Below, in pieces: positions 27,395 to 63,675 of a stretch of 64,000 bases of DNA. Under the pieces are notes generated by a model. The model was not told the origin of the DNA. It saw only the letters and a program-made list of their open reading frames with translations, and did not search any database. The DNA is taken from assembly GCF_037975245.1 (NCBI RefSeq), contig NC_092564.1, positions 20,623,984 through 20,687,983 on the forward strand, given 5' to 3'. Position 1 is the stretch's first letter. Each line of letters begins with the position of its first letter. This stretch comes from Apostichopus japonicus. Lineage: Eukaryota > Echinodermata > Holothuroidea > Aspidochirotida > Stichopodidae. A program made the translations under genes and the position numbers.

Positions 27395-27553
27395 CTACGA
27401 GGATCCTTCATCTTTCAGATATTCGTAGACGGAAGAGAAATCTTTCATGGCGTACCCTTTGTTACATAGTATTCTGTAGAGCTGATGGGCTAAGGAACCC
27501 ATAGGTATAGGCGACTTTGTTGTAGTGGCTGCATTTTGAGCCAAGCCCAGATC
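27395..27553 (-). CDS. HIBADH: HIBADH exon 8 and stop
   Basis: The acceptor is TTTCCGTAAAG. It encodes [15 protein letters not shown] through [12 protein letters not shown] and stops at TAG 27397-27395. Length and ending match the vertebrate protein. Confidence 0.95.
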   Translation of the reverse strand, partial: DLGLAQNAATTTKSPIPMGSLAHQLYRILCNKGYAMKDFSSVYEYLKDEGSS

Positions 27554-30500
27554 CTTTACGGAAATCGTGGAAAAATGAAGAAGGAGAAAGGAAATGAGAA
27601 ATCTTGGTAATTTTATTCTGTCTGCCTTCTTCATACAGAGAGCATTCGCAACAAGTACAAATCATCAAAGATGATCACAAAGATACAAAATGTAGCTCTG
27701 GTACGACTTGAGTTGAGTTTGTATAAAAAAAATGAAAGATGCTCTCCAAGATTGTAAACAGCATGTCTTGATGTGCGCCCTCCACAGACGAGAGAAAATT
27801 GAGTGAATACGTTGGGGAGTGAAATATTATTTAGATGAAATGCAATCAGGTGCTTTAAATAAAAAATAATCAAAGATTGTTCTATCATTATTTTGCTATC
27901 AGCAAGCTCAGAGCCACTGCAGGCATCCACTCACCCCCCCCCTCTCCCCTCCCACCTTCTCAACATCATTATGACTACACGTTACAGACAGTGATGACTA
28001 GCTCAATAAGAAAAAGCCAGCTCAGAACTGGCATGGAGAAGAAGAAACTGATTATCTGATTAATTCTTAAAAAAATTCTGTCATCCAGATTTTTGACAGG
28101 AGTAACCTTGGCTGACTTGAATGGGATGACCTTTATAGCGAGAATGGAATTTTTATGATTATTTAGTTATCATATCTCAACCAAGATTTTGTTCTTCCTT
28201 TAACAATTGTTAGCAAGGTACACTCTGAATCTACCTCTAAGTTCATTCTCTTGAACTAAGTTTTGGGCAGTTTTTCACTCACACAGGCCAAATTCACTTG
28301 CCTGTTTCCAATGCTTTCCAACACACAAAATTGTTGCCATGCCTCTTATTGGATTTGTATGTTTGTATCCACTTTTTTCAAGTGTTATTTTTGTATGACA
28401 AAGGTAGTGCCAAGCTGGGTGCATCCCTTGCACAGACCAGTTTGGTGATGTTTGGTGCTGATTTTAAAACACTGGTGGTCTTGACAGGCCTTTGGGGTTT
28501 TGGTTTCACAAGAATTATAATATCACTAACATATTTTTGACCTATATTGTAATTGTAAAATGGTAAACTAAACTTTGAAAAGTGTTTGCTTAAATTTTTG
28601 GTTTGTTTTTTGAAAAACAGTCTAAATGCCAGTTACTGTCGAAATGTGAGGACCCAAAGAAACCATTGGCAGGGACACATGTAAATAAACCACAGAGACT
28701 CAGTTCTTATCAGCAGACATTGCGCTGTGGTTTATCAACAGACAATACCCTCACACATGACAAAGTGTGCAAGAGGCTCAAGAACCAAGCAGCACCTGAT
28801 GAACTTTCTGTAAATCTTGATCTTACAGTTTTAATAAAGGAATAGCAACTACTGCATAAAAGAACCAACCAAGTTGAGGAGGGATGTAGTATGCATGTAA
28901 GGATGTAGGGATGAGGGATGTATTATACAAGGTCCTATCTCATATTGTCTTGGCAGTCACTAGCTTTACTAAACAGTCTCTTGTGTTTTTTTTTTAGGTT
29001 TTATTGGCTAGTGTCTATATCACAGTTAGTTTTGTGTTAATTAGTCATGTTACTTAATGTGTTTTTCTGAATGTCACATGAGAAAAAATAAAATTTGGAA
29101 TCGAATGATAGCTTGCGGTAGACAGAGTAATAATGTTGTCTACATTTTGTACAGCACTTTTGAGACTCACATAAATTCTACTCATACCATCAAAAACGAA
29201 AAAATAAATAAAAAAATGAAAAAAAGAAAGAAAAATAACAACACTATGAAGTGCTGAACTGACTAACCTTGGTCATAAGTGCTGTAGCAAAGCCTCCTTT
29301 ATAGTTGTTACTAGAAGGCACTCCTTCTAACACTCCTGGAACAGGGTTATAAACCTCACTGGCCCAGCTTCGACCGCTGCTGGTATTCAGAATCCCGGCT
29401 AGGATCTTAGCATCCAAACCAAGCCTGAAAGTGTGAAGAAAAGTAAGGGGAATTATTGAAGAGAACGTACAAAGCAACGAGTTTCCAAGACAACTGTATG
29501 ATATATAGTTGTAGGTCAGCACCTTTTCATAAAATGGAGAAAGTAATTTGTGAAAAGTACAAGAAACTTATTTCTTCAAAAGTTACAATGAGCAGGAGAT
29601 CAGACGGACAGACAAAGACAGTGATTCTATGAAGAATTCACAGAGGATCATAGCATAAAGTACCACTGTGTTGTACGAGAACTCGGTTCAATTACAGCAC
29701 ACTATAGCAGAGTTTTAATCCCCAGTTTACACCCTCTATTATATCACGGCACTGTAATGACTTGAGGAGCAAATCAAAGTAGGTATGATTGATGTTTTTC
29801 CAAGCCTTACATTTAACAAACTTACATTGTGTTTTGAGAGGAACAAATGTCTGTTTGTATGATGCTTATTCTCGATCATTGTTATCTCGAGATTCTAAGA
29901 TCATCGGCACTCCAGAATATCAAGCATTATTTTGAACAACAAACAACAAACGATGCCATTCATTCGAACAAGTTTTACTTCATGCCATCTGCGTACAAAC
30001 AAGCAATACATTTGCAAAAACCAAAGAGACCTCAATAAAACACCAAGGGAACATTCAACAGATGACAGCTAATAAAGATAAGTCCTTACCTCATTCCGAG
30101 GTTCATAGATTCCGAGACTCCAATCATTGAAATAGCCAGCATCATGTTATTGCAAATTTTGGCAGTCTGTAAAATAGAATTGGATGAAACCATCATCTTC
30201 TTGCCGGATTGAAAGACCAATCATTTCATTGTCCATCTTATCAATACTATGACTCTGGATAGTACCAGAAATGGATCTCCCTTAAATTGTAAGTAGTTCA
30301 TGTTAGAATATAAGTATGCATCTGACAGAAATTTTTTCCCGCACGGTTTGCTTCATTGTTTAGTAGATTGGTTCAGCAGGAGAGGCAAATCTTGGAAATA
30401 TTTGAAACTTGTATGAATGTAATAAAATTGGATCTTTAGAATTGATGGAAGCTCTCTTACTGTACATTGGCCTGCCCCTAAAAGTTCTTAAAGGTTTGTT

Positions 30501-33500
30501 GCATGCTGTTTTAGGGGTTTAAAGGATCTTACAGAATGTATAAAATATATTCCACTCTATTACATGCCAGTAATATTTGTTGCGTGAATCAATCAAGGCT
30601 GCAAATAATCAGTCATCAAAAATAGCCCAAAATTACATAGATCTATATTGCACTTAATTACCAGAACCACTGCATATGTATTGACCTATTATTACTCTCT
30701 TAATGGACACCATGATGGAAATAAATCACATTATTTAAAACTTTTAACATTGTATAACCCTACTAAACATTTATCAGATCACTATAAAGATTAGTCCCAA
30801 TGAAAATTTATCTTTGCATGAAGATAGAGAAACATATACTGGTGAAATTTCCATTCAATTTCTGCACACTGTTTTCAGTACTGTATAACAACAATTGACA
30901 TGACACATTTTCTACCAACAATGAACTTGAAGCAAACAGCACACTGATAAATATGCTTTTATGTTTTTGTTTAAAATTTACATTCAAATTTCTACTTCAA
31001 ATTGTCACCCATTTCAAGATGCTACAGTCACTGGTGTATTGTTAACTGCTCATCCTCTGTGGTAAAATTATAGCCTTATCTTATCCAAGATCAAAACAAT
31101 AAAGTGTAAAATAAAGCAAAAATAACAAAACACATTTTGCTCTCAGTGTTCTACTATTACATGACACCTGCAAGTAGCTGTGACAGTTTCCAGCATCTCG
31201 CAAACTCTACGTAGTATTCCCTTTCAAATTTCATCAAGTTGCTTTCAATATACTTCTCTTTCGTCAGGCGAAAATATATTTTCCGTTGGACTACCCTTTT
31301 CATACTAGGCTCAGGCTTATCGCTGGTAATCAGCTTAAAAAGTAACCTTGTTTTGAGTGATTTTCTTTTTAAAGAATATGTTAGAGACAACACTCATTTT
31401 CCATCCAGTGAAGAAGGAACTTAAGTGAACTGAAGTATGCTACTGAACCATACATTCAATTAAATCTTAATTATTAAATCTGGACTATTAATGTGTTGCA
31501 TGTAACACAGTTATGCCAGTCATAGCAGTAAATATTCCTTACTACAGTAGATGCTCTATTACTGGAGAGAAAGAACTCACTTGTCCTGTACCAACAGGTC
31601 CAGTATGTATATTTGTTTTATTACTGGAGAGAAAGAACTCACTTGTCCTGTACCAACAGGTCCAGTATGTATAATATTTGTTTTATTACTGGAGAGAAAG
31701 AACTCACTTGTCCTGTACCAACAGGTCCAGTATGTATAATATTTGTTTCATTACTGGAGAGAAAGAACTCACTTGTCCTGTACCAACAGGTCCAGTTACA
31801 ATATTTGTTTTATTACTGGAGAGAAAGCACTCACTTGTCCTGTACCAACAGGTCCAGTATGTACAATATTCTTCCCCATGTGCCTCAGTAGTTCTTCAGC
31901 TGCTTTGAATTCTTCACTTTTTCCTCCAACCATAAAAGTCAAGGAAGCCTCTTTGGCAGCTTTTACTCCTAAAGTAAAAACAAAGAAGGTTCATTACATA
32001 GGGAAGAAAAAATATGAACCTACGGATACATACTCTTCTAAAATAACAACTGTATAAAGAATCAGAAAGAAACATTTCCCATCCAAAAGTGCTTTTCCTA
32101 CTGAACATTAATCGCAGAATAACCAAAAAATTAATATCATTCTTCCTACACATGGAACAGTTTTGCGAGGTTATGATGATATCACAACTATTGGCTTGGC
32201 TTTCTTGATGACAGATTATTCCAAACCTTGGCCTTTGAGGCTTTGACCTCCACCAGAAGCAATAATACAAACCAAATATGAGATCTGTCCAAGATTCCCT
32301 TCTTACAAGATCATGTTTACAAGGTTTTCACAATTTGACCTCAATGACCCCAAATGACCTTGACCTCCACCAAAAACAATAGACCTTTGTACTCAATGTG
32401 GTACTCCTACACACCAAATATGAAGTCTGCCCAAGATTCCCTTCTTGAGATATCATGTTCACAAGGTTTTCACAACTTGAGTCCTGGTGACCCCAAATGA
32501 CCTTTGACCTCCACCAAAAACAATAGGCTTCTTGTACTCAATGTGGTACTTTTACACACCAATTATAAATCGGTCCAACCTTCTCTTCTTCAGATATCGT
32601 GTTTACAAGCTGGGCATCACAAACGCACACACATATGCACACTTACATACACACATACGCCATCATGAATGCAAAGGTTACAATTATCATCGAAACCAAA
32701 AACTTAGCAAACTAGTTTAGCACATTTTGCATTCATGAATGCATTTACATGGTAGTTATGTATGGACACAACCAGCCACTGCAAAACATGCAAAGGGTTG
32801 GTTAAGAGACCTTGGATATAAATAGCACCTGCTTTCAATTTTTCATAGTTTTTTAAATTTGTGGGGATCACAATATTATTACAAGAGTTATATATAGAAC
32901 ACAATTTTATTCCTTACAATGCAATTCACTTCAAATTTATTTCTCACCTTATTGTACAAAAATCATAACACAGAGTACAGTAGAAAAATTAACATAATAT
33001 GGAGGGCACTCTAAAACAGAGCTTTTGTTCACAAGACTAATGACTATACAATAAAGAAAGAGAAATGTCTTGTGAGCTTATGGCATTTGCTTTTCAATTT
33101 CTCTGGCTGTGTATAAATTTGCAGAGACAAGAAGCTATTTAGAGATTTTTAAAAAAATAATTGCCCTTGATGATGACGGGAAAATTCATCTCACCCACCT
33201 CCAGATACTGGAGCATCCATGAATGTTGCTCCATGCTTCTCAGCAAGAGCAGCCACTTCCTGAGAAACATATGGATCTATGGTGCTACTGTCGATCAAAA
33301 GACACCCCTTTTTCACTTTCCTAGAGAAGGAGAAAATAGTAATGAGGATAGTAAAGTGTTTGAAAACCACTGTGCAGTTTTGTGCATTGATTTGGGGGAA
33401 TATTACAATAATATTCAATACTAAGGTGATAATGGTAGATAATCAGCTTACAAAAGGCTTTCTCTTTGTAATGTGTGTTGAGAGAACTACAATGCAGGCA

Positions 33501-35306
33501 TGTTCTCATGGGGAACTTTGATAAAACTGGGAAGGATATCTTTGACAATTTTACACAAACAACTCTTTTCATATGACATGCATGATTCATTAATAAAGGG
33601 ACAGAGTCTTGTTACCTTTAAGTATCCCATTGGCACCTTTGAGTATAATGAGAAGCTTAATTAGATCCAACCTTGGATTTATAGAAAATAATCAACTGAC
33701 TCAAACAAGACTTGTGAAAACTACTTACAGGAGACCAAAACAAAAACTTCAGTTATGTAACTTGAGAACCTGGTTGGTCTAACGTTGACCTCCACACATG
33801 TTCCTTTTCTGATATGTACATAATTAAATTTCTTCACTCCTGTTGCCAAATTAATTTTTGTGGTACTTAATCAAATTAAATAGAACAACATATTGGTGGG
33901 GGATGGGGGTGGGGTCGGGGTGGGGGGGGGGGGGTGAGCAGTGGGTGGTAGGCGAAGGAGTCGATCATTTTGCTTTTTAAGCAAATTTCTTTAACCCATC
34001 ACATGAAAGCTTTCTCGCATACTGTGGCTACTTCCGTAAATCTTGTAATACTCACCCTAATATACCATTTGGTCCGTTATATACTTCCAACACATTTGGA
34101 CTGGATGGCAACATGGTGACGATACGATCCACTTTTTCTGCAACTTCAGCTGGGGTCTCAACCACCTCTCCTCCCAACTCATGGATTTCTGCTGTAGCCT
34201 CTGGGTAAACATCATTGACGACGATCGGGTAACCATTTTGTAGCAGGTTTTTAGCCATGTATCCTCCCATGTTGCCAAGACCGATAAATCCAACAGCTGA
34301 CCTGGAGGCCTGCTGAGAAAATTAATTTTGTATATTGTTTGATAATCTCACACAGGCTGTCCAAATGTGCCATAATAGTTTGGTCTCACATTTTAAACTG
34401 TCTGCCTATGTATTCAATAAGTGGCGTTCCATAGATTACGTTCCGCATAGGCCAAGTACATCTCTTCTTTGAAACAATTCACTTTATATACAATATCAAT
34501 TACATAATTGCACTTATATTCCATTGTTAATCTGAGAACAAATTTGTTAAAGCCAAAGCTTGAATGTGTTGTGGAATATTATTGTATATTTACTATTGGT
34601 CCCGCTTTAAATGGTAGCACTCTGTCTGGCAGCTACAGAAGGGTATTGCACACCATATGTGTGTGCATAGAGTTGTATGAATGAACAATTAAAAGCATAT
34701 AAACTTACCATATCTTCTGATGAAGCTGATGGAGAGAAGTAGAAATATAATTGCAACAGGCTGTGAAAAGTGAAATCTAACTCTGCAAGGATAGCTAGAC
34801 CTACAGTATTCTTTTAACATTGCACAATGCGTGAGTCAACATTTTATGTATGGTATACGGTAACTTCGCATGACCCCTACATTAGCGCATACTAACCATG
34901 CATTAAACATTGTTTTCATGTTTCTGGAATTGATAGCATGTCAGAAGTAGTACAACTACCTGGCAGCCTAGCCAACTAACGTTGCACATCAGGGTACACT
35001 GGCCTCGGCTACACTAGTAAGGGTGCAGATCTGGGCTAAGCTCCACTAAAACGAGTTCGACCCTTAATTTCACACTGTTTGCTAAAAGATAGACTACCCA
35101 ACAATCACAGTAAGGCTTGACGTTGACTTTAGCCTAGCTGTTTATGTAGCGGTGTAAGCTGTGCTTAGTATAAATATCACAATACACTCAAGTCTCAGCA
35201 CAATCATTGTAAACTTACTTGAGAACGGCGAAAAATAGAGAGCTGTTTGGGTTTGGTTTATTCTAGAGCAAAGAAGTGCTCTTTTAATAAAACGAGAAAC
35301 CTGCAT
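27395..35306 (-). CDS. HIBADH: 3-hydroxyisobutyrate dehydrogenase, mitochondrial, 8 exons, 344 aa
   Basis: This enzyme oxidises 3-hydroxyisobutyrate to methylmalonate semialdehyde with NAD+ in mitochondrial valine breakdown. The exons are 35306-35219, 34760-34709, 34301-34056, 33320-33199, 31968-31835, 30166-30090, 29424-29268 and 27553-27395. All junctions are GT-AG and in phase, giving 344 residues against about 336 in human. Visible in order are a basic transit peptide (about 1-46), the NAD-binding [10 protein letters not shown] (51-60), LLIDSST (136-142), the substrate-binding DAPVSGG (164-170), the catalytic lysine in TAKICNNM (Lys217, Asn221), NPVPGV and a C-terminal all-helical domain with SLAHQLYR and KDFSSV. 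Intron 5 carries duplicated copies of the exon 5 donor. The gene lies 24 kb downstream of Evx in the same orientation. Identity is very secure; only the exon 2-3 junction is less certain. Confidence 0.95.
29268..29424 (-). CDS. HIBADH: HIBADH exon 7
   Basis: The acceptor is CACTTTCAG and the donor GTTAGT. It encodes [35 protein letters not shown] and FATALMTK of the C-terminal helical domain. Confidence 0.95.
30090..30166 (-). CDS. HIBADH: HIBADH exon 6: catalytic lysine
   Basis: The acceptor is CTATTTTACAG and the donor GTAAGG. It encodes [16 protein letters not shown] and SESMNLGM. The Lys of TAKICNN is the family's catalytic lysine and the second Asn is a conserved active-site residue. 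Confidence 0.95.
31557..31871. repeat. 62-65 bp tandem repeat spanning HIBADH splice donor, 5 copies
   Basis: Units start at 31557, 31619, 31684, 31749 and 31811. Each holds TATTACTGGAGAGAAAG, ACTCACTTGTCCTGTACC and AACAGGTCCAGTATGTA. The rightmost unit contains the real exon 5 end and donor. The other four sit in intron 5 and keep a matching GTGAGT. Plus-strand ORFs with repeated [13 protein letters not shown] come only from this array. Confidence 0.95.
31835..31968 (-). CDS. HIBADH: HIBADH exon 5
   Basis: The acceptor is TTTACTTTAG. It encodes [15 protein letters not shown] through [12 protein letters not shown], then a GTGAGT donor. The last 36 or so bases and the donor are the first unit of a tandem duplication running on into intron 5 (31557-31871). 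Confidence 0.95.
32200..32700 (-). repeat. Tandem dispersed repeat in HIBADH intron 4
   Basis: About three copies, 120-150 bp apart, share TTTGACCTCCACCA, ACACACCAAATATGA, CCAAGATTCCCTTCTT and ATCATGTTCACAAGG; they are followed by a CA-rich stretch and ATCATGAATGCAAAGG. The inverted relative is at 9770-9922. The copy at 32498-32510 includes TGACCTTTGACCT, a direct repeat with one-base spacer. Confidence 0.8.
33199..33320 (-). CDS. HIBADH: HIBADH exon 4
   Basis: The acceptor is CTTCTCTAG. It encodes [16 protein letters not shown] through MDAPVSG, the end of the Rossmann domain and the substrate-binding loop. The donor is GTGGGT; a nearby GTGAGA would break the frame. Confidence 0.95.
33893..33950 (+). 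repeat. Long G-run tract in HIBADH intron 3
   Basis: Successive runs of three to twelve G separated by single bases or short spacers, capable in principle of forming a G-quadruplex on the plus (non-transcribed) strand. Confidence 0.7.
34056..34301 (-). CDS. HIBADH: HIBADH exon 3: NAD-binding Rossmann fold
   Basis: Contains [30 protein letters not shown] and [15 protein letters not shown]. The donor is GTGAGT. The chosen acceptor (CCTCCAG before 34301) is the one in phase with exon 2. The upstream alternative CAG before GCC would give a Gln/Ala-Ser-Arg start but does not fit exon 2. Confidence 0.9.
34709..34760 (-). CDS. HIBADH: HIBADH exon 2: transit peptide, 52 nt
   Basis: The acceptor is CTTTTCACAG and the donor a strong GTAAGT. 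Entered in phase 1 from exon 1 it gives [17 protein letters not shown], with two bases left over, which make Trp with the first base of exon 3. It is not conserved, as expected of a presequence, so support comes from the splice sites and phase. Confidence 0.6.
35219..35306 (-). CDS. HIBADH: HIBADH exon 1: start and transit peptide
   Basis: ATG at 35306-35304, 29 codons plus one base, then a strong GTAAGT donor. It begins [15 protein letters not shown] and is rich in Arg, Lys and Ser with no acidic residues, as in a mitochondrial presequence. The preceding CAGCAACA context is compatible with initiation. Confidence 0.75.
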
Positions 35307-36489
35307 TGTTGCTGTATTTTAGAAAACTTTCAAAGTTAGACAAATATCAGGCTTGGGTTAGGGCCTGGACCGAGATAGTATTTACTAGGCCTAGCCTATT
35401 CTGTTCAATATAAATCGCAGAAATATCTAGCTGTGGGTTCAATGTGGTGTTTTTAACACAGTGATCAACTGCATGGAACGCCAAAACATCGTCGCTGGAT
35501 GACAGCTGCATGAACGATGAGGTTTTTTAACTTCTGTATAGTAAACCGTCTATGTAAAGGACAATGTAGCATTGCGTCGCCAAATCACGTTCTTTGAAGC
35601 TTTCGTCACTTTTTGAGACACAGGTCTGTCTTGAGGATTGCAGAATGAGGCGCGCTCGCAAAACAAGGCGATATTTGAGTTAGAAATCAATCATTTTAGT
35701 TAGATGTGGAGGATTGTTCGGTAGGACTGTGTTGAATTGGTGATTAGCGAGTAAATGTGGATACATATATCTGGCATAGCTCGTAAACTCCTTACATGTC
35801 TTTAATTTACATACTTTTCATAACAACTCATATATTATTATGTGTGTTTATGCTGATTCATAGCTAAACAAATGTTTTTCTTTTATAAATCATGATTTTG
35901 TCATGATTTTTGTACCTGGCATCCGTCGTTATTATGTGACTAACAGAAATGTCTGTGCTTGGTTATACATTACAACACATTAGCAGTGGGGTCTATGCGT
36001 GGGCAATTCACTTCAGGGTGTACACTTCATTAGTCAGGCATGTCAACAATCCCAGAGGTAGAACAAAAATCTGCTTGGTTAAATAATAAAACTAGAAACG
36101 TAGATACGAAATCATGCATACCTCCATGTCTATGTATGGTGGCTGTACCGCATAGTCTTAAAAGATGATGGATGTGTCCGTAAACCATATCGTAGTGGAG
36201 GTCCATTTCATATTGATTTTCTATAGCTTTTTTGTAGTTTTACTGAACCCGTTCGACGTAACAGGGACGGCAGTCCACTTGAAGTGGAGGTGGAGGCCGG
36301 GGAATGAGACGAAGACACCTCAAACCGTTGCGAAACGAAAATCAGGGCACCAAACACATTGGGGCTCCAAGCAATCGCAAAGTGGGGGGGGGGGGGGCTT
36401 GGGACTTTGTCCAGTTTAGGCATCTTCGCAAAATGAACTGTTCCTTCTGTTGATGCTACGGTGACACAGATGGCATCAGAAATGTTTAA

Positions 36490-36870
36490 CATTTTTATCA
36501 AAATTTCGACTCGTTTGCCTTAAAATTTAACCTTTTCCCTCAGTGCTTGGATATTTTCTAAAAATTTCGACTTATATCTACTGTTTATCTCAGAATTTGG
36601 GTGTTTTGACTTATTCGACCAGTTTATTGTTTCTTTCCATACCTCTTTTTCCGACATTGTTTATTTAAAAATATCGACTATTTATTTCAAATTTTCGTCT
36701 ATATTCCCCAACCCTCGACGCTTTCTGAAACTTTCGACTATTCTATCTCAACATTTTTACTCGTTCCTCAAACTTACGACATTTTATATCAAATATGCAG
36801 CTTCATATTTTAAGTTTACTTTTTATCATTTTTATTTATATAAAGGTTCGACTATTCAATCTGAAAATGC
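36490..36870 (+). repeat. Degenerate TTTCGAC repeat
   Basis: TTTCGACT, TTTCGACTTAT, ATCGACTATTTAT, TTTCGACTATTCTATCTC and GTTCGACTATTCAATCTG recur at irregular spacing, mostly followed by TATCTCAA/TATTTCAAA. This looks like an old, decayed short tandem array. Confidence 0.5.
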
Positions 36871-37267
36871 TTTATTTGAAACGAAGAGTGAAAAGGTTTT
36901 GATCGTTTAATGTTAGAATTTCTTCCAACCGTTCTCCCTTTAAGAAGTATGATTGGAGGTTATTCTATTGACATCAAATCATTGTAGCCTTACGAAATCG
37001 ATTCATTATTTTTCTACTTGCTACGATAGCATTGTAGTGTATGTTGATTTTAGATTTAAATATTTCCACTGAAAAAACATGAAGTCCTTCCCTGTCTGTT
37101 GCGATGCAATAAAGAAACATTGTAAGCTTATTGTAAATTTTAGTATTCTTATCCATTGTGCTAAGGTGAGCAAGGTTGCCTGGAAGAATATTTTGATGAA
37201 ATGAGCGGAATTTATTGCTATGAATGCACATTTCCCAACCGGCAAGATACATTTAAGCTCATTGACA

Positions 37268-37385
37268 AGTACCTGGATCAGGTGGCTCAGTGTGTAAAGC
37301 TAAGTACATGGATCAGGTGGCTCAGTGTATAAAGCTCGGACTTGTTACCCGATGTTCCGGGTTCGAATCCATCTGAAGTTAGTTT
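37268..37385 (+). mobile_element. tRNA-like sequence with local duplication
   Basis: GATCAGGTGGCTCAGTGT-TAAAGCT occurs twice (about 37276 and 37312). The second copy continues as a tRNA-like fold: TCAGGTG can pair with CATCTGA over seven bases, the loop CTTGTTA would give anticodon TGT (Thr), and box B is GGGTTCGAATCC. The T stem does not pair, so this is a tRNA-derived SINE or pseudogene rather than a working tRNA. Confidence 0.5.
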
Positions 37386-40300
37386 ATGCGATACTCCTTT
37401 TCTCTTTTGCTTACTTCTCTCTGGAGTCTTTATACACTGACTTAAACAAATATTCTATCAGCTGACGTAGTGGCCTATGCTTTAAGGGGCAGATGAAAGA
37501 CTGTTACTCTGTCTGTTGTTTCAGGGTTCCTATAGGGTTCAATGCACACGGGAGTTCATAGCACTTTGGTGGTGGTATGGCACTTTTTGTGGCCTAGGAT
37601 CCCGTGTCTATGTCTCCCTTTTGTCATCAAGGGAGGATGCCAAAGGGGTCGGTCAAATCGACCAGAAGTGGCGTGCGTGAATCCTGCCTATGGTCGGAGC
37701 CTGGGTCTAATAATTGTTTGCGAATGTTGTGTGAGTGTATAATATCCACCCGAGGATTTTAACCCCGGTGCAATAGTTTGCCTTGGCGTACCCTATGACA
37801 GTTTGGACGGTTTGCAGTTCTATCATGTTAGTATGAGGATGGGTAAAACTGAAAGCACGACACAGTCTATAGTCCGCCCTGCCCCCCCCCCCCCCCCCCT
37901 TGAAGGATTTATGTAGGGATATGAAATTATATGACAGGACCAGATGCGAAAGAAGAAATTTTATAAAGGAGGACGACTGCTCTGAGGTCGACTCCTGTGT
38001 AGGGTGGGGGGGTCTGGGGTCCTCTCCCCCCCAAACAATTCTTCTTTCATATTATCCGGTAGGGTATTTTAAACTAAACTATAATATCCCCGGTTAAAAT
38101 ATTAAGGGAGAGATTTTACACTGTCACACTTGTATGTGTGCAGCCACCGTTGACGGAACACATGAACTGATGAGCTGCTATTCTTCTACTATTGAATGTA
38201 CGGATAATTTCAAAGGACATAATAGTCATTTCTATAAAAAAAAAAAAATCATTGAGTTTTAAGCTAGCGCCATCATCTTTATGATGGTTAAATTTGTCTC
38301 TTCTTAGTTCGTTGGGTTATACAGCTCGGATGCACTTGACACGCTGTTGTGGGCTCAGTTCAATTGAAACACACCATTAACTTTTGACAAAGCAAAAGCA
38401 ATTAAACTTTCAAGGGATGCGCAGGCCCAGGGTCTCCGGGAACCGTATAAAATAAATGTTTCGAACACACAAATACGCCAGTGAAGTTATATTAGATACA
38501 GTAGGGAACAACCCTAGCCCTCCCCTTAAGTTTCCTTTGTCTTCTTTAACAATAGCCTTTGAGTTGTTTACAGCAAACCTTTCTGTTGATCATTTTAATG
38601 CATTGACTGAGGATGTTTTAAACTTTTCTAAGTGTGCAGTCGACATCCTGTTGTGCACTTCAGGGATCAAACCTTGATATTTACAGAATATCACCGAGTT
38701 CTGGTTACCATTACTTTACATATGCAAGTCAACGGGGCTTATATTCTGATAAACAATGAAAAACTACCCCTTACTATATAAGGACAATTGTTACAGGTTA
38801 TAACCAACACGTAATGGGATTTTATACTCTTTGTTGAAACACAGCTGATATTTTAACTAGTAATCTGTTCATTGACATCTTTACTTCAAACTTAAAAATC
38901 AAAACAATGCGTAACTAAAATGGTTTATGCTTGCAGGCAAGATTCATAGTTTATCATGCATATAGTTCACATGCAGGTGTACGACAGGAGGTCTTCTCTA
39001 TAAAAATGAGTACTCCAGAATTCATATGGAAATTGTTACTTCCAGCAACACCATTCCTTCTAATGTTGGATATGTAACGAAGAGAATGCAATTAACTTAA
39101 CTAATTAACTTCTTCTTTAAGGTCCGTGTGTGATTCCATATGCTTTCCCGATTATTTACAACTTCAATTTGTGTTTATTTTGTCGAAATCTAGTGATGCA
39201 AAACTCGGGCTCTTTAGGAAATGTTATGTCCCTAAAAACATGACCGTACCGTGTAATGTAATTCCATGGCAAAAGGACCAGGAGAAGACCGATTTTAGAC
39301 ATATTTCCAAATGAAAAAAAAAAAATTCCAGAAGGCTATGTGTACTGTATTAAACGATTATACAAAGTCAGGCTGTTGTTACCGGACAAATCTCATAGGC
39401 TATGTTTCCAGTCACGTACCAGTATTATTATATGACTATAATTGGCAAAAGTAGTTTAAACTCACAAAGCGACGAAAAGTGAAGCCTGACTAAATTCACC
39501 ATCATATATATTAAACTTTGATAAAAGTTTCACCATGAGTGACAAATTTAAATCTATACGGTTTTTTTTAAGATGATGGAATGACACCATACATATATAG
39601 ACAAGCTAGTGGAAAATGGAAGTTAAACGACGTAAAACACAATTTACCGAAGTTAACATAAACTTTACATGAACGTTCATGTATGTTAGTTAAAAGTGGT
39701 TGTTGTGCCCGATTTAAGTGCGAGGCCAGACTCTGCCGCTACATGTTTCGACGTTAAAACTCACCATCTTAGGCGGTGTAATATGACACGCACACAATAA
39801 GTAATATGGCAGTTTCATCGCGATCTGAATAATAAATTGAGATGTGTTTACCTGATATCCAATTATACTGTATCAAAGAAATACCAAACACTGCTGCTAT
39901 CTGCGTGACACAGAAGTGCTAGCACAACATTTATACCTGGGAGATGTTCCCTACTGATATACCTATAACATTTTATTACGGTATTACAGCGATGTCGTTA
40001 CACCATGGACTAACGTTACAAATATTGTCATTAATCGTCATTGATTCTGCTTAAACGACTCCCACAATCTTCTGGTCCGGCCCCCTACAAGCTAAATCCG
40101 CCCATGGTGATTGACCCTTAAGCTGAGTACAAGGGTTCGGGTCTGGTTTACTGATTGTACGTGCAATATTCACACTAGCCGCTCCGCCAGTCTACTGACT
40201 CGGCATGGAGGTTTCATCCGATGTTTTATATCCCCGGTACTTGACATCCCACCCCCCCCCCCACCCCACCCATGCATCGGGGCGTCCGCCGCGGCAGGCC

Positions 40301-41373
40301 GGACTGGTCTAGTAACACCGCCGATGCTCATATTTGTGTATCTCTTTAGTATAGTCTTTTGTGTTGTTATTTCAGTAATTTTTTTGTATAAATTTCCTTA
40401 TTTCCCTCTTCCTTTGCTGTTATCATACTCTCACCCATATATTATTTGAGATGGAACTCAGTGTAGTGCATAGGCGCACTCTTTGATACATAATTTATGT
40501 GAAAGGAGAGTCACCCGCCTCCCCCCCCCCCCCCTCCCGCCACCTTTTCATGCACACCTTCAAGTAAAACACGGTCCTAACTACGCTCATCTCGTGGCAG
40601 ATCGAGAAATCGTTGACATCAGAGCAAAACAGTATTGAATGACACTTATTCAGGGAGTTTTTTAATAGCTATTCTGGAAAAATAGAAATTCTAATGATTC
40701 GTTTTTATAGTATTTATACCATAAAATATCATACATAAAATACTGTAATAAAAATTCCACTTAAGGAAGTCCTAAAAGTGAATCCAACACACTTGTTTCT
40801 TTCTTTCTTTCTGTTTTTTTTTTTTTTTTTGCTTCTATTTTTTAACGTTTGTTTGAAAGAATAACAAACCACGTTATGCTTTAAAGATCTTCTCTAAATT
40901 TTGCTAAAGTGAAATTGAAAAACAGCTAAATAAAAAATGACTTAAATGTTCAGACCTTACTTTAATCAATTTTGCTTGTCAAATTTCGTTTATATATATC
41001 ACCCTTTGGATAGTCACAAGACTACCGCGATAGTATTATCATGCAATTATCTGTGTATAATTAAACCAAAATGGGCTGGAACAATATCACAGCCAAAGAA
41101 AAACAGATAATTGAAAACCAGAATAGAAGGAAAAAATTAAGTTCACATGGAAGAGCGAAGTGACAAGAGACAGGTCAGGTTTGTTTAGCAGTCAATGACA
41201 GATAGTAATTATTTTGTAACCCATATTTTTCTTGTAATTTTAAGACGCTGTAACGTGAATCAAGATTAAATCCCGGTGTCAGATTTAGACTGCAGATTAA
41301 CCTTTTAATACATCTTGAAAGTTACTAATGCTAAGTTGGCCGTTAATATATCTAGGCTAATGGTAAAAGTAGC

Positions 41374-41374
<1 letters not shown>

Positions 41375-41454
<80 letters not shown>
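41375..41454. repeat. (TA)40 microsatellite
   Basis: A pure TA tract flanked by AGCG and CGCT, which makes the whole locus a perfect palindrome. Confidence 0.95.

Positions 41455-41455
<1 letters not shown>

Positions 41456-42502: not shown

Positions 42503-42505
<3 letters not shown>

Positions 42506-42561
<56 letters not shown>
42506..42561. repeat. (TA)n microsatellite
   Basis: A pure TA tract of 56 bases. Confidence 0.95.

Positions 42562-42563
<2 letters not shown>

Positions 42564-49081: not shown

Positions 49082-49084
<3 letters not shown>

Positions 49085-49161
<77 letters not shown>
49085..49161. repeat. (TA)n microsatellite
   Basis: A pure TA tract of about 77 bases. Confidence 0.95.
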
Positions 49162-49163
<2 letters not shown>

Positions 49164-51547: not shown

Positions 51548-51590
51548 GGCCTGACGTTTCGATCCTAGCAGGGTCTTCCTCAGAGGCTAA
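51548..51590 (+). repeat. Dispersed repeat core related to 26317-26400
   Basis: GGCCTGACGTTTCGATCCTA, then GCAGGGTCTTCCTCAGAGG. The minus strand of 26400-26360 reads the same motif order with substitutions. This looks like the core of a widespread interspersed repeat. Confidence 0.5.
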
Positions 51591-54186
51591 ATGACAAGTT
51601 TTGCTAACAGTTTTATTTTATTTTGAAGTTAAGAAAAAGACAGTTTGCAAATTCTTTCGATGGGCTCATCTCCAGTCGATATCATCACCTGTCCTCTGTG
51701 TTCGTAGGCTCAATCAAGTCACGTGACTTTATTTACCTGCTGCGGGCTTACTTTAATCTCATGGTATCAGTTACAGGGGGTAATGAGTGACTTGTTCCTC
51801 AATTAAATCGAACCTGGTTTGTCCATCCTCTTGAATCGTCCATTCGGTCTTTATCCTTCCGAGCCTCTCCGTATAAAAGATCGATAGTGAGTTACTAGAT
51901 CGCTAAGTACGCCATAATTGTATTCTTTACCGACTAAGGATTGAAACCCCTTAACTATTTCTACCTCATTCCTTCAAACATATTTTGGACCTTTGTCCTG
52001 AAACGTTTTCCAGACGAGGAGTCTACTTTTCTGATCTGGTCGATTAGGTTTGGATAAAACGTCTTAGGTTAACACCGACCGTCTGTTTGCTTTGATCATT
52101 GCGACGTACACACGCCGCTCCCAACTTATTTTATGCATGGGTCCTCTGATGGGCAAGTGTATGGGGACATACGACTAGGACCTTCATCCTCCCAGCGAAT
52201 TTAAAATAAAAACATATTTTTATGCTGCATCTCTCCTTTAAGAGAACAATATTGTTGATACATTAACCGTTTTTATACACTATTGCTAATAAACATCGGC
52301 CATTCTCCCCGGGGGACTCCCTCTTCAGCGGGTCGAACAGGTTTTTAGGTTACCCTATAATAACATTATCTAAATTTAATGCACAGCGTAAATAATGGTG
52401 TCTTGTTTTCCCCGTTACAATGGTTTTAATATGGTATTCTGAGTATAACGCACAGATTCTTTAGTTTATCTGATGACGTCATTATGAAATTTGTAACGAT
52501 TTCACAACCGCAATCAATTGTTTTTTGTTCCTTCCTGACAACTGACCCTTTAACTTATTCTGACCATTTTTTTTTGCTCATTGGTTTCTTTTCTTTTCCT
52601 TTCCTTTAGATATTATTTTGTGTTTGTTTGTACATTTTCTACACGATTCTTCTATACTAACATTATAGAGTCAGTGATTTGACTGGCATTACCAAGAATG
52701 AAGAATTATACCAAGAAGTTATACATTTCTGATTTTCGATTTTCCAGAGATTAACAAAAATCTATCAATATAATCTGGGCGACTATATTAACTATGTTTC
52801 AATAAAAATTAAGCAGTTATGCTCTTCTCTTTGTTTTATTCATGCATTTACAATATTACATTGAGCGACATCGAACGTTATAAGTTGTCAGAGTCAACCC
52901 AACTCTTATATGAGGTTTAGTTAAAATATAACAAAGCACATTTAATGAGAAAACGGTCAGTTATTAGCTTTATTGATATATGGAGTGGTTAGTTTTTTCA
53001 AGTTTTTTTTTAAAAGAAAAGTAACACAGAAACCATGAACCACTATATCGTGACATTGGACGCCTGCACTTCCACCTACGGTCCATGTGTTCATCTATAT
53101 ATACGTTTACATATTTTAAATACATAACCGGACATGATGAAATAATTGCCAAAATATGTGAAAATATTAATCTCGATTCTCACTTCATCAAAATTCTGAC
53201 GTCACTCTATGTTTCTTTTGACCCATCTATTAATTTATTTGCTCTTATCTCAGCACATTTATAAAGTATGCGCAGGCAGGAATTCATGAAACATCTCGAC
53301 TTTTAATTTAACGTCCCCACGGGGAAATATTAACACAGTTCACTGGTCACTCTTAAAGGCGAGTCAAGCAAATTTCCTGCCAAATATATACATATATCCG
53401 TTTTAAATGTATGATACTGTTTCCTTTTTGGTGACTACAAAAACATTCAACATTATTTGATCGCAGTTAAGAAATGATAAATTAACTGTTAAAAAATGAA
53501 AAAGTTTTCGTGAAATGCGGAGCAATAAGTTCTCGCTTTTTCTTATTTTATCGATGTCATCTCTTTTCGGTTGAAAATATTAAAAAAGAAAAAAAGTGTC
53601 CCACATGGGAATACCAATCTATTAAATCTATTTGTAACAAAAAAAGACAAATTCTATCTACGCGACACAGTTCTAAAACATATTGGTATAATATGGTACG
53701 ACTTTCTTTTTTCTTGTCTCATCGCAGAAACAGGGTGAGATAATAGCTCGGTGCATTCACAGGAAATCCCTAGAGCGACTAGCAGATCTCCCCATAGACT
53801 CAACGGCAATAGTCGGCGGAAACTCGCGCCTCGCTCGCGGATTTCATAAAAGCTAATGATTCCGTACATTGTAGCCACTATTACAGCTATTATTCGTACC
53901 ATTATAGTTAGAAGGGTATTCATCTATGACTCGTGTAGGTTTAACACAGAAATAAAGTGGCAAGGTGCTACATTTGGCTAAAGAAATTCATTTACCATCA
54001 CTTAAAGAAACAAAACAAAAAACAAAAAAGAGAGAGAAAAGAGAGAATTAACGAAGTCAAAAGTTATACATTCAATTATATTGTATATCGAAGTTGCATT
54101 TATATTTAACAGTGTCTTAAAATGAGAGCAATTGTTAATACGTCTTCAGTTCTCAAATTACAGATAACGTTATCAGAGGTCACATT

Positions 54187-54190
<4 letters not shown>

Positions 54191-54227
<37 letters not shown>
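54191..54227. repeat. (TA)n microsatellite
   Basis: A pure TA tract of 37 bases. Confidence 0.95.
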
Positions 54228-54229
<2 letters not shown>

Positions 54230-55194
54230 ACTAAATTTATCGTACAAATCGTACCGAATTAAGATTCATCAAAAGCGACAGAAAAAGTATAGTGGAGTCG
54301 GGTGCATTTGAAAGCAGATCACTTAGATGCTACACTGAGCTCTAAATGATAAATTGGTGGTGGTTGGGATTTGAATCTGTTGAAAAATGATATCATTAAC
54401 AGCAAATTTAAGGAACTATGGGATTATCTGCTAATCCCCGTCAGAAATCCACTCTGCGTTAAAGTTAAGTAAATAAAAGCTTTCTGGGTACAGGGACAAA
54501 CAATATCTCACGAGCCTTAATAGCTTGACGAGATTTCGGTTAAACCTATAGCATCTTGACAGTAAATGATACAAACGACTTATCAGCTTAGGTTAATTCG
54601 ACAAGCTTTTGTTTAGCGTATAGGAAAAGTCATTCTTTGCAATGATTTACGGGAGACGTTAAAGATGATGCGAATAATTCAGGTGCTTGTGGGCGAGATC
54701 GACGTCCCTAGAAGTCGAGGGGGCGGCAAAGGTGATGAATTGATTGAACGGTGCCGGACGGCGAGATAATTAAAGACGGCCCATGAGAAAGAGAGAAAAA
54801 GGTGGAGAGAGTAAACAAAGAAAGAAAGTAAAGGAAATAGAACGTATACGATATAACAAATATTATCTGTAAATTTTAGAACAGCAGTGAAGTAGCAAAT
54901 ATGATAGAAGTGTGAAAAGGAAAAAATATCCAACCTCCTTCGGAATTTGAACCAGTTATTTCTAACCAAGGAGGTCGTATGTTTAACTGTGTAGATCTCC
55001 CGTCACCTTTCGAATAACACTAGCCCTTTAAAGTTTGTGACGTGTCATTTTCTTAATGTCTATAGTGATCGACGATATAATGTTATCGAACCATAAACCA
55101 TCTGCACATAGAGTAGAAACTAAGAAGACGTACCGAACATAGAACTATATTTATTACAATGAGGCAAAAACGAAACTATATATATTAATAAATA

Positions 55195-55370
55195 TGTATA
55201 TATATATATGTATGTATATATATATATATATATATATAAATGAAAATCGTAATGAGTTGGAAAATCAAGAACAGTGAAAAAACTTTCAGCCTCCACCGGG
55301 ATTCGAACCACGGGCCTTCCGCTCTGTACGCGGACACCCTAACCACTAGGCTATGGACGCTGATTGTATG
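55195..55370 (-). mobile_element. tRNA-derived SINE with (TA)n tail
   Basis: On the minus strand the head has box A TAGCCTAGTGGTTAGGGTG, a perfect five-base anticodon stem TCCGC/GCGGA around GTACAGA, box B TGGTTCGAATCC, and acceptor arms AGCGTCC/GGAGGCT (six of seven pair). The T stem is imperfect. A 60-base unrelated body and a (TA)n tail (55239-55196) follow, as in a SINE. Confidence 0.6.
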
Positions 55371-55581
55371 TCCAGAGGTTCGAAACCGGTAAGGAAGGTC
55401 GTAATTCCACTGTAGGCGTTTGTCACCTGTATCGAACAATACTAGTTCTGTTTTTGGTGACATATTTTGCCGTACTCTAGAGATCAAACATGATGCTAAC
55501 CAACTCGAAATCATTTGTGATTCCTAAAGCCGGATCTCGTAAGAGATACTTTGAACAGACTTTATGTTAAGAATATATACA

Positions 55582-55583
<2 letters not shown>

Positions 55584-55656
<73 letters not shown>
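55584..55656. repeat. (TA)n microsatellite
   Basis: A pure TA tract of about 73 bases. Confidence 0.95.
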
Positions 55657-55659
<3 letters not shown>

Positions 55660-56949
55660 ACAAGATTTGTAAAACAGGTTTTTTTTATAGTCTTTTTCAA
55701 TGTTATTTATTTGCAATAAAATTATAACTCCCATTGCCCTTAAATATGTTAGAAAGTGAACTGGTGGGACAGTTTAACAATCATCCTAACTGGCATTCGC
55801 CAACGTCTGTTCCTTCAATTATTTCATTTTAATAGTGTAACTTTATGCAGCCCTCAAATATCTGGAAATAAGATGGAACGTGCATGGTAACCGACGGTAA
55901 AGCATATCTTGAAATGTTAACCTTCCAAAATATTGGCCCAAGAGTAACATATAACATATGATGTAACTTTGAAAGTTTTGTTGTGATGAAAAAAATTAAG
56001 ATCTAATCTCATTAAAAGATGATCTTAAATTTGGCTGTGAAAGAGTTTTTTTTGAAGATGCGTGATGCGTAAAATTCGAATTCTCATCTCGCGTTTAACA
56101 GTGCTCCCCCAACCACCCCTCCCCTCCCCCTTGTAAAGTAACCTTCCGATCTAAAAAAAATCACAATCTAATTACAAAAACCTGTTTACACCTCGTTTTG
56201 TCAGGGTCGATCGTATTTAATTGAAGAAGTTTGAGCTTTTATTCTTATACAACAGGAATTGTACGATGTACGTTACAGTACAGGATTGCTCATCTGTCGG
56301 ATTGCTATATATATTTTTACCAATGCACCGCGGCCGAGTTTCGTATGAACAAGACTGGAGTTGTCAACATTGAGACCATCTTTTGTGACTGACAGTCGCT
56401 CAGTTGGAGCGAATTTGACCGGTGAAGAAGACATCACATTCAGCGTTTACATATTGGCCTGTATAAACATGCCCCCCTCCCCCACACTTTGTAGGTGGGG
56501 GCAGGAATTTGTCTCTGCGCTCTCACTTTTTACTTCATTATTCACCGGGAACCTTCGTCTTAGTAAAAGTGAGTGCAAGGAAATCAAATCAAAGATCTTT
56601 CGTTTCATATATTCACCAAATTATGTATAATTATTGATATTGTATCACAAAGATTTGACATAAATTTGACGTGAAGAAAAAAAGTAGAAAATTTTACGCC
56701 AAAGAAAAAAATTACCATTTGACGTTAAAGTCCAAATTGCTATGAAACACTTATCTTATTCATCTCATTCCAAAAAGTACAAATTTGGAAGTTTTACATC
56801 ATCAAGTAATGTCCAATCTGGGCAACTGCAGCATGTGTATAATTACTTAATTCTATTCTGCTGAATACCCCGGGCCTCAACAGTATTATCTACCCCCCCC
56901 ACACCCACCATTTAAAATATTTGCCTTAAATCGATTTCTTTCTCCTGAA

Positions 56950-57290
56950 TGTAAAATGTACGGTAGGGTAGGATGAGGGGGTATGTAAAATGTACGGTAG
57001 GGTAGGATGAGGGGGTGGGTATGTAAAATGTACGGTGGGGTTGGACGAGGGGGTATGTAAAATGTACGGTGGGGAAGGATGAGGGGTGGGGTATGTAAAG
57101 TGAACGGTGGGGAAGGATGAGGAGGTGGGTATGTAAAATGTACAGTGGGGTCGGATGAGGGGGTGGGGTATGTAAAATGTACGGTAGAGGGGATGAGGGG
57201 GTGGGGTATGTAAAATGTACGGTAGGGTAGGATGAGGGGGTAGGGCATGTAAAATGTACGGTAGTGTAGGGTAGGATGAGGGGGTGGGCG
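56950..57290. repeat. 34-42 bp minisatellite, about 9 copies
   Basis: The unit is TATGTAAAATGTACGGT followed by a GGGG-AGGATGAGGGGG-TGGG stretch of variable length. Overlapping minus-strand ORFs with repeated HFTYPTPSS are products of the array, not genes. Confidence 0.95.
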
Positions 57291-59561
57291 GTCATAACAA
57301 TTGTCTCAATCAGATTTAGCAATGGTGATGGTTGGGTCTCCTGCTTTCAGCTAATATATATATCGTAAATAAAATAATACGATGGAAGAAATCTATTCAA
57401 CACAAAAGTCTCCATTAATTTAAGAAATAAAATAACCAAGTAAACAATTAACTTAGGCGAAAACGGAGAATGTGGTGGTGAGGGGTGGGAGGGGGATATT
57501 GTTACTACATGGGTAGTATACGTCTGTAGTATGCGCAATTGGAGTGGGTAAAGAGGACTAATTAACTAATTAATTTATCATCCACCGGTAGCTATAAGAC
57601 ATTGCCAAGAAACAGGCGTTTCTATGTATGGACAAAAAAAAATATGAACGAGAGAGAAAGAAAATATAAGAATGATGAAAATGAAAATATTTTCAAGATG
57701 TGCAATAATACTTATTTCTTCTTCGACCTGTTATGTACAAACAAATATTTACAAAAAAAAAACATTTTAGACGAATCTTTTAACAATAATCATCAACAAT
57801 AGAACAAAGAACAACTTCTTAGTGCTTTGTACCATTTGTTTTAACTTTAATTCTTTAATTCTAATTAGTTTGGAAATCGGCATCACTTTCCCAGTCTATA
57901 CGTCACCCATTAAATGTTACCTATACCGGTTTGTTGAGTTCACTCAACGACTTCCATCAAGTTTACAGCAAACGGTCCGGTGTTTGCCCCTCTCCCCCAC
58001 CCCTCCCCAATTAAACAAACTAGGATATCTTTCTAACAAATTTCACAAAATGATTATTGATTTCGTTTAATATGGAATTCATCCAAATCTGAACCTTTTC
58101 GTCGTCCGGGAACCCTTTTTTTCGCATTTGCATTTCAGCATATGCGCAAAACAGTACGATTGTTTTTTTTTTACCGCAATATATTGAAAAAAGAAATAAT
58201 TGATAATAGCTCAACTCAGAACGGACTCGGATTGCGGAATTCAGAGCAACCAAACTTTGAGGGATGACTTTTTAAAAGCACAATATTAATTTGATTTGAT
58301 TTGATTTATTTGATTTTCCACTGGATATATACATGTGGAGGGAAGTCCTCTAAAAAGCCAATTCAGGCTTAACAAGGTAAAGGACTCCCAGAAAAAAAAA
58401 AAAAATTGCGATTAGTTTGTAGATCGTTTAAAAAGCACTATACCATCCGTTTAAGGTTGTATTTATACAACATTTGTATTTATTTTTGAGAAATTACCCT
58501 TTAAACAAGTGAGGTTCATCAATTAAAACGACTGGATTATGTAGTCTAATGTACAGACCATTAACTTAACACAGTTCCTCCGATACAAGGCAAAGCTCAA
58601 TATGAACACATAAGAATTGAATGGCCGGCCTCAAATGACATACTTACAAAGCATTACAAATTTGCCAATGACAAACGGTGTTCAGTTGTATATGAAATGA
58701 ATATATTTCAATTGCGTTATTACATTTAATCTTGCACTGAGGAACATCTATGTCATCATCACATTAGCCTTAAAAGAGCTTTCCAGAGATTCAACATATT
58801 CTCAAGGTGAATATCTTGAAAACTGGAATAAATATGAAATATTACTAACACTTATCCCCACCCCCCCCCCAACCTCACACTTGAACTATGAATATCAAGG
58901 CCAAACTTCAGCCTAATTTCATCCTGTAATAAGAAGCTAGAATATTAGTAAAGCAATATATATTTAACCATTTTTCGTAATAATATCACACACAGATAAA
59001 GCTGATGGTTGGTCTCAATATTAACGCAATATTCTTCTTTAATTGTCCAATACCTATATATATATATCATGATTAACATAAGACTAAATAAACTTTCTCG
59101 TATGCTACTTTTCCTTGTTGTGTTTGTTAATTTTCCAATTGACTATACCGTAAGCTTTCGTTTTTGGTTGGGCAAGTTGGTTTCTATTTTCTATTGTAAC
59201 ATAACTGATCAGGAAATAATGTCATTTTTTAAAACTATTGTCAACTAATGAAATGGAATATATTTATATCCAATATATTCTTCTTAAGATCTAAGAAATG
59301 CATAACGATGATATTACAAAAAGAAAATACTTTGAAAACTCTTAACTTTTAAACAGCGTAGTTAAAAAATAAAATTGCACAGTAAATGAGCATCCTGTAT
59401 TAGGACGAAACCTCCGAGAAACTCTCCACCACTGTAGCGTAACGAAAGTATAAAATTGTTCAATGATTCACCCTTCCGCGCCCCTACAGTTTGGCTTTGG
59501 ATGGTAACCAACATTATTCTATGTGGTTAATCATATTGTTTTTTTTTCAATACAGAGATCA

Positions 59562-59567
59562 TTTATT
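59562..59567 (-). terminator. Candidate Evx poly(A) signal
   Basis: AATAAA on the minus strand, about 190 bases after the Evx stop. Chance occurrence is possible. Confidence 0.35.
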
Positions 59568-59756
59568 TAATAAGAAATGTGCATCGTCGAACGTTTCATT
59601 GCAGCAAGTTTGTTTGATTTATCGGAGAAGTTCAGAGTTTGTGACTAGTATAAAGGTCACCCCTAAAGACATCCTCATTAACATTACCCATCAGAGATAT
59701 CCAGCGGTATTGAAGACAGCTTAAACGTTGAAGTTCAAAATTACCACGTGGTGACG

Positions 59757-60344
59757 TCAGTAAGTGGCATGGAGCGGGATCACCGATGAATGCGGTGTAG
59801 AAGCAATGGTTGGCAAGCCTAGTGGTACGGCTGGAATCGACGGGCGGCTCTCACTTACAGCCGATGACGTCACGACAGGATGACAAGAATGTTGCGTTGA
59901 TGAAGCGTGAGTTGAATGAGGTGGCGTCAAATGCGCATGCGTAAGATGTGTGTGGTGGCAAGAACAGGTATGGGTTCCACTGGAGAGAGAGAGTGCAGCG
60001 TTAGACCGGTAGGCCGTCGGGTTAGCGATGACGTCGCTGCCGATGGGAACACTGCCATGTTGGTACGTATGCGCTGATAACGCCCTGACTAGCTCGGCCC
60101 TCTCTCGCAGTTGCAATGCGTAGGCGTCCATCGCTGTGTAATTCGGTGCTGCGGTTCCCGGAAGTGGTTGTGGGTAGTAATTCAGATGAGGAGATACAGA
60201 CGAATGACACGGGTACGGCATCCGACCAGAGAGGAGCAAAGAGTAGAAGTGAGGGTCGATGGGGGGTAAATGGTGGGGCCAGTGACAGGCTGCTAACGAC
60301 ATCCGTTGCCTTTTGTCTTTCATCCGACGATTTTGAAACCAAAC
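59757..60344 (-). CDS. Evx: Evx exon 3: homeodomain helix 3 and C-terminus
   Basis: The acceptor is CATTTATTTTCAG. It opens with [14 protein letters not shown] (homeodomain residues 47-60) and runs 195 codons to TGA at 59759-59757. It is clearly more GC-rich than its surroundings, as real coding sequence is here. Confidence 0.95.
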
Positions 60345-63300: not shown

Positions 63301-63675
63301 CACCGTTATAACAACGCGCATATGAACTGTTATCATGCAAGCGCCTAGAATAAAAAGTATTGAATACAATTTTACCAAGAATAATTTAACTAAATCCACT
63401 TTTTAATTAAATGTTCAAAATAACTTTATGATTCAGACATTATATTGTATTTAATTAATATTAAATAATCTAGCGATGTGCTAGTTGTCTTATTCTGGTC
63501 CTATGTCGGTTATTTACCTTTATTGTAGATTCTGGAAGATTCAGAGAGGCAGCTAGCTCGCATCTTTTTGGCCTGGAGACGTAGTTTTCTCTCAAGAATT
63601 CCTCCTCTAGTCGACCAATCTGTTCTCTTGTAAACGCTGTCCGGTATCTTCTTATTTGACTGTTATCTCCAGAAT
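59757..63675 (-). CDS. Evx: Even-skipped/Evx homeobox gene, exons 2-3 (5' end outside window)
   Basis: A homeodomain transcription factor used in posterior, mesodermal and neural patterning. Exons 63675-63518 and 60344-59757 give 247 complete codons; exon 1 is beyond 64000. The homeodomain begins [12 protein letters not shown] and includes [18 protein letters not shown], then, across the intron, [14 protein letters not shown], with Gln50 and Asn51. The intron falls between homeodomain residues 46 and 47, as in vertebrate Evx genes. Downstream, [19 protein letters not shown] and LNYYPQP resemble the conserved Evx segment after the homeodomain. The C-terminal tail is rich in His, Ser, Thr and Pro and ends HATY. 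The first bases of exon 2 need one base from exon 1. Confidence 0.93.
60345..63517 (-). other. Evx intron splitting the homeobox
   Basis: A 3,173-base phase-0 intron. Mostly complex AT-rich sequence with few tandem repeats; no other exon recognised. An ORF at 63112-63399 has no homology I recognise. Confidence 0.85.
63518..63675 (-). CDS. Evx: Evx exon 2: homeodomain residues 1-46
   Basis: The acceptor is TTTTTATCTCATCAG and the donor GTAAAT. After two bases of a split codon and SGDNSQ, the homeodomain starts at 63655. Residues Arg5, Phe8, Leu16 and the RPKRCELA segment are of Evx type. Confidence 0.95.

Follow-up and report, generated by a model that had tools for sequence, protein, structure and literature searches.

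Evx and HIBADH are direct neighbours in the sea cucumber Apostichopus japonicus, far from the Hox cluster

Results

We examined a 64,000-nucleotide stretch of the genome of the sea cucumber Apostichopus japonicus (contig NC_092564.1, here C4, positions 20,623,984-20,687,983; hereafter the window), which carries exons of two genes: Evx, a homeobox gene of the even-skipped family, and HIBADH, which encodes the enzyme 3-hydroxyisobutyrate dehydrogenase. The two genes are neighbours. Both lie on the minus strand and are transcribed in the direction from Evx to HIBADH, with HIBADH standing 3′ of Evx across a gap of 25,436 bp. A preliminary description of this DNA had set Evx beside HIBADH with no gene between them, both on the same strand and with HIBADH downstream; the placement of the exons and the lack of a Pfam match among the frames of the gap bear out both statements. 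The searches covered 671,581,487 bases in 35 contigs, and the published assembly of the species has 671.60 Mb in 34 scaffolds, with 23 chromosomes and 19,828 genes (PMC10344927). Throughout, this one echinoderm genome is compared with what is described for vertebrates.

HIBADH occupies positions 27395..34321 of the window on the minus strand as six coding blocks, identified by the order of tblastn matches, a match to the PDB, the Pfam domains NAD_binding_2 and NAD_binding_11 and the presence of a single copy. The blocks found by tblastn (34309-34058, 33322-33197, 31969-31829, 30169-30080, 29429-29268 and 27571-27407) are collinear with residues 37-333 of the human protein. Four of the exon frames, joined and compared with the PDB, matched best to 2i9p (E 3.6e-96) and 2gf2 (E 4e-96), structures of human 3-hydroxyisobutyrate dehydrogenase, and the next entries, 3q3c and 3obb, were far weaker (3.4e-51). 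In these comparisons the predicted protein resembles the animal HIBADH structures more than it does the superfamily's other dehydrogenases. We found no second copy in the genome, as all six matches at E ≤ 0.001 were the gene's own exons. One scan for the exon encoding the transit peptide gave 12 candidates in the gap, and another gave 14 there plus 4 beyond 59.7 kb on the right, none of them convincing by eye. Exons of this kind are short and show no conservation, the scans have low power, and one of the right-hand candidates falls inside Evx exon 1. A 65-bp tandem repeat (4.9 copies, window 31557-31870) overlaps the end of the exon at 31969-31829 together with its splice donor, so that copies of the exon end sit in the intron. 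Minisatellite arrays lie downstream of HIBADH at window positions 21938-22949 and 23779-24311, with units of 34/67/100 bp and 90 bp, respectively.

Evx contributes two minus-strand exons to the window. The homeobox exon (63518..63675), recognised by a Pfam Homeodomain match (E 2.5e-13), its splice sites and Even-skipped as the best PDB match, encodes homeodomain positions 1-46. The last exon (59757..60344) encodes the end of the homeodomain and a C-terminal region with a WP..DP.FY motif, and was identified from its sequence, its splice acceptor and a genome match of 99%. Exon 1 lies beyond the window at C4 20,690,692-20,691,199, 3 kb past its end. The interval first given for Evx therefore held the homeobox and the last exon correctly and fell short at exon 1, and the gene is longer than that interval, about 7.5 kb. 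Among the best 60 of 103 PDB matches, Even-skipped came first (E 8.4e-33) and engrailed was the next family (1.2e-21), which places the predicted homeodomain nearer to Even-skipped than to other homeodomains. An intron interrupts the homeobox after position 46, with fitting splice sites at 63518 and 60344, the position at which vertebrate Evx genes also carry a homeobox intron. Past the homeodomain, the C-terminal motif is by eye similar, not identical, to the WPYLDPYY-like motif reported for the Evx/even-skipped family (PMC13125763). A second Evx was not found in the genome, where the 30 matches comprised the three exons of Evx itself (92-99% identity) and 27 other homeoboxes (34-59%).

The stretch between the two genes (34322..59756, assigned to neither strand) contains no recognised gene; among its repeats are TA microsatellites, a 38-bp minisatellite and a single copy of a tRNA-like repeat. 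We scanned frames of at least 55 amino acids between 34.33 and 59.75 kb against Pfam at E ≤ 0.01, and none of the 107 matched, although a gene without known domains or with short exons would escape such a scan. The tRNA-like sequence (55287-55361) is the sole RNA match of the window. We rejected it as a gene in the gap because it belongs to a repeat with at least 40 genome matches at 99-100% identity, itself included (40 scored of 797 candidates). Repeats found by self-comparison cover 1.4% of the gap, 1.8% of the left part and 7.1% of the right part, a low-power comparison to which we give no weight. The window, the 60 kb to its right and the 10 kb to its left contain no N, which makes 134 kb of uninterrupted sequence around the pair.

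We then set this arrangement beside the vertebrate HoxA 5′ flank, which runs HOXA13 - EVX1 - HIBADH - TAX1BP1 - JAZF1. In human, HIBADH lies on the 3′ side of EVX1, convergent with it, and is not known to contain it. Evx and HIBADH are thus direct neighbours in both settings and HIBADH is 3′ of Evx in both, whereas the sea cucumber pair is in tandem and the human pair is convergent. The claim of a conserved linkage with changed orientation accordingly holds in both its parts. Since HIBADH is 3′ of Evx in both taxa, a flip of HIBADH alone, in one lineage or the other, suffices and is the simplest account of the suggestion that one gene has inverted. The vertebrate linkage is itself already known (PMC2080641): in teleosts, Hibadha is placed 5′ of evx1 (PMC2080641) and hibadhb beside the HoxAb cluster (PMC3897358), so the same neighbours occur in phyla as distant as those of sea cucumbers and teleosts. 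In open-licence literature on HIBADH with Hox, Evx, amphioxus or echinoderm, we found no report of the pair outside vertebrates in titles, abstract starts or passages.

How readily such a pair would arise by chance can be estimated from the 19,828 genes in 671.6 Mb of the published assembly (PMC10344927), from which about 875 genes are expected on C4. Two given genes of this chromosome would then be adjacent with p about 0.0023, and HIBADH would lie on the same side of Evx with a probability of about 0.1%. The pair was picked by a reader aware of the human order; few alternatives were open, so the correction is small. We infer that the adjacency was inherited from before the split of vertebrates and echinoderms. 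Because the genes are adjacent in a non-vertebrate, no second copy of either was found and chance adjacency is about 0.2%, the pair is likely to be older than the vertebrate Hox duplications, as the preliminary description had proposed.

We next located the Hox genes. A Pfam homeodomain search of the genome, in which 150 of 158 candidates were scored, listed 93 matches. These place the Hox cluster on the chromosome that carries Evx: ten homeodomains at C4 6.139-6.929 Mb read Hox1 through Hox11/13c when named by eye, the one at 6.198 Mb matching only partly. The cluster lies 13.76 Mb to the left of Evx and its posterior end is the nearer one. A set of ten is consistent with the report that A. 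japonicus lacks Hox4 and Hox6 (PMC6018497). The Hox11/13b-like homeodomain (C4 6,849,339-6,849,509) is on the strand opposite to the other nine, and, by eye, frames of the tRNA-like repeat stand at two places less than 10 kb from the Hox11/13c homeobox. Posterior Hox genes, which were to be looked for to the right of the pair, are not there in this search, the nearest listed homeodomain on that side being at C4 25.2 Mb. In this assembly, Evx does not flank posterior Hox genes as it would in an intact extended cluster. The suggestion that the pair marks the outer boundary of an Evx/Hox domain consequently finds no support, with Hox 13.76 Mb away and other genes on the right side.

These other genes begin, head to head with Evx, with three plus-strand SPMAP1-like frames (E 8.9e-07, 1.9e-05 and 8e-20, the second under the curated cut-off), which put an SPMAP1-like gene in the upstream position that Hox13 takes in vertebrates. 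Farther right, on the minus strand, come frames that match TIR and Arm and one whose weak match to Sin3a_C falls just below the cut-off; the Pfam scan of this flank took in 8 of 268 frames. To the left of HIBADH are two C-type lectin frames (window 4.8-6.3 kb) and, beyond the window, NUP210 on the minus strand. Four more families met in the left-flank scan, with one frame each at E 0.003-0.0096, were taken as chance matches.

Adjacency of Evx to Hox is described for most deuterostomes (PMC4066700). Hox-cluster neighbours, evx excepted, are reported to be highly rearranged, and the ambulacrarian Hox chromosome to derive from a fusion with mixing (PMC11175523). The scattered flank genes of this genome agree with that pattern, to which the displaced Evx of A. 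japonicus is the exception. We found no report of the Evx–Hox distance in sea cucumbers in literature titles or abstract starts, and the word Evx does not occur in the sea cucumber papers PMC13228809 and PMC10874539.

We also traced the other genes of the vertebrate 5′ Hox flank. JAZF1 was found at C4 2.45 Mb as two exons (47 and 57% identity), with a weaker match on C13 in a 1345-amino-acid open frame. The LNPK domain, PF10058, has its sole genome match at C4 8.32 Mb. The SKICH domain occurs at two loci. The one at C4 12.64 Mb runs on into a coiled coil like that of TAX1BP1/CALCOCO (by eye); the one on C15 was set aside, since it looks, again by eye, like an inositol-phosphatase relative. The metaxin domain PF10568, used as a HoxD-side marker for MTX2, was found on C13 only and may belong to another metaxin. 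Four of the five flank queries, HIBADH included, thus have their best match on C4, and metaxin on C13. With JAZF1, PF10058 and the TAX1BP1/CALCOCO-like gene at these positions, the chromosome has been kept and the local order shuffled: the Hox cluster and the three scattered flank genes are 8 to 18 Mb from Evx. Compared with the vertebrate HoxA 5′ flank, sea cucumber Evx has no Hox gene upstream, and along C4 the TAX1BP1/CALCOCO-like gene lies 8 Mb from it and JAZF1 18 Mb.

Such scatter is not itself new, since in amphioxus and the blood clam jazf1/2, atf2/7 and atp5g are on the Hox chromosome and away from Hox (PMC9976460). Like the SuperHox and Hox-chromosome genes of that study, Evx, Hox, JAZF1 and other ANTP-class homeoboxes are here spread along one chromosome; HIBADH, which the same paper (PMC9976460) does not mention, is here the sole flank gene kept beside Evx. 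By eye, homeoboxes of C4 read as Meox (2.25 Mb), Hox (6.1-6.9 Mb), a Nedx-like gene (17.06 Mb), En (19.27 Mb), Evx (20.69 Mb) and Ro (25.2 Mb), a set as expected of a dispersed SuperHox group. JAZF1 is about 0.2 Mb from the Meox-like homeobox. The Evx–HIBADH adjacency looks to be an old one that has outlasted not only the adjacency of Evx to Hox but also the other linkages of the vertebrate 5′ Hox flank.

Discussion

Why should an enzyme gene have stayed beside Evx when the Hox genes did not? The reading we prefer, to which we give an even chance of being right, is that the two genes have been neighbours since ancient times and are held together by a regulatory-block arrangement in which HIBADH is a bystander. 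The ancestral pair would predate the vertebrate–echinoderm split, and Evx of the sea cucumber lineage would have parted from Hox while HIBADH stayed at its 3′ side. Hypothetical enhancers of Evx, situated in the shared gap or in HIBADH introns, would cause breaks between the two genes to be selected against, and HIBADH, a housekeeping enzyme gene, would be carried along with its orientation free to flip. Vertebrate work suggests the kind of element that might be involved. In the mouse, the strongest HoxA limb enhancers lie inside Hibadh and Jazf1, interactions between Evx1 and Hibadh are enriched in the limb, and a subset of the enhancers likely regulates both genes (PMC3873244); in the limbs of transgenic mice, HIBADHb, TAX1BP1b and JAZF1b of pufferfish show expression together with HoxAb genes (PMC3897358). 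Other developmental genes form conserved microsyntenic pairs that lie inside topologically associating domains in the sea star and the sea urchin (PMC13317027). Evx–HIBADH resembles such microsyntenic pairs, or genomic regulatory blocks (Pax1/9, Foxa, Tbx2/3, Egr; PMC13317027), in joining a developmental transcription factor to another gene across phyla, and differs from them in that its conservation is seen, at the level of gene positions, in vertebrates and this genome only.

Several points weigh against a regulatory hold on the pair. The vertebrate enhancers are limb elements, discussed around the fin-to-limb transition (PMC3873244), and may be vertebrate inventions. Only one species stands behind the sea cucumber side, and with HIBADH flipped, the precise layout of the pair is evidently not under constraint. 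At 25 kb, the gap does not exceed the mean of about 34 kb per gene and is not a gene desert. It also holds a repeat copy identical to others elsewhere, so recent insertions are conceivable.

There is a serious rival, which we hold to be somewhat less than probable: that nothing keeps the genes together and the ancestral adjacency escaped breakage by luck. The ordinary length of the gap agrees with such neutral retention, as does the fate of the four 5′ Hox flank genes on C4, of which one (HIBADH) is beside Evx and three are scattered, since a lone survivor needs no special cause. What speaks for a hold is that C4 is well shuffled, the Hox cluster and the other flank genes having moved far from Evx, and that HIBADH and the Hox/Evx genes beside it have regulation in common in mouse and fish (PMC3873244, PMC3897358).

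It is quite improbable, by comparison, that the pair formed independently in echinoderms and vertebrates through rearrangement within one conserved chromosome. With four of five flank queries on C4, the pool of potential neighbours is under a thousand genes, and HIBADH has the orientation opposite to that in human; against this stand the low expected frequencies given above, about 0.2% for either side of Evx and 0.1% for the same side, with few pairs tested and a small correction. A structural lock, with Evx nested in the first intron of HIBADH and the transit-peptide exon lying past Evx on the right, in the same orientation, would also keep the genes together. That both genes are on the minus strand and no gap candidate resembles by eye a phase-0 transit-peptide exon would suit such nesting, which we nonetheless think very improbable: the scan for that exon has low power, the four candidates to the right of 59.7 kb are no better than the others, and human HIBADH is not known to contain EVX1. 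Least probable of all is a scaffolding error that misplaced the contig with Evx and HIBADH and hid an Evx truly beside the Hox cluster, for although the published A. japonicus assembly that this one resembles drew on no more than 3.18 Gb of Hi-C data (PMC10344927), the pair lies in 134 kb without Ns and has other genes on both sides, the contig N50 reported for that assembly is 17.2 Mb (PMC10344927) and the adjacency is independent of scaffolding, a faulty join somewhere in the 13.8 Mb between Hox and Evx being still conceivable.

A regulatory hold on an ancient pair could be extended by one further step, which we consider unlikely. Evx and HIBADH may make up a separate regulatory landscape that predates the Hox cluster, does not depend on it and survives alone 14 Mb from Hox in the sea cucumber; the 5′ enhancer landscape of vertebrate HoxA, within HIBADH, would have been built on it, with posterior Hox genes joining later. 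Evx is usually treated as a flank of Hox. In A. japonicus it is without Hox neighbours and still has the enzyme gene beside it, which separates being linked to Evx from being linked to Hox. The pair is therefore a natural test of whether the enhancers around HIBADH acted on Evx earlier than on Hox genes.

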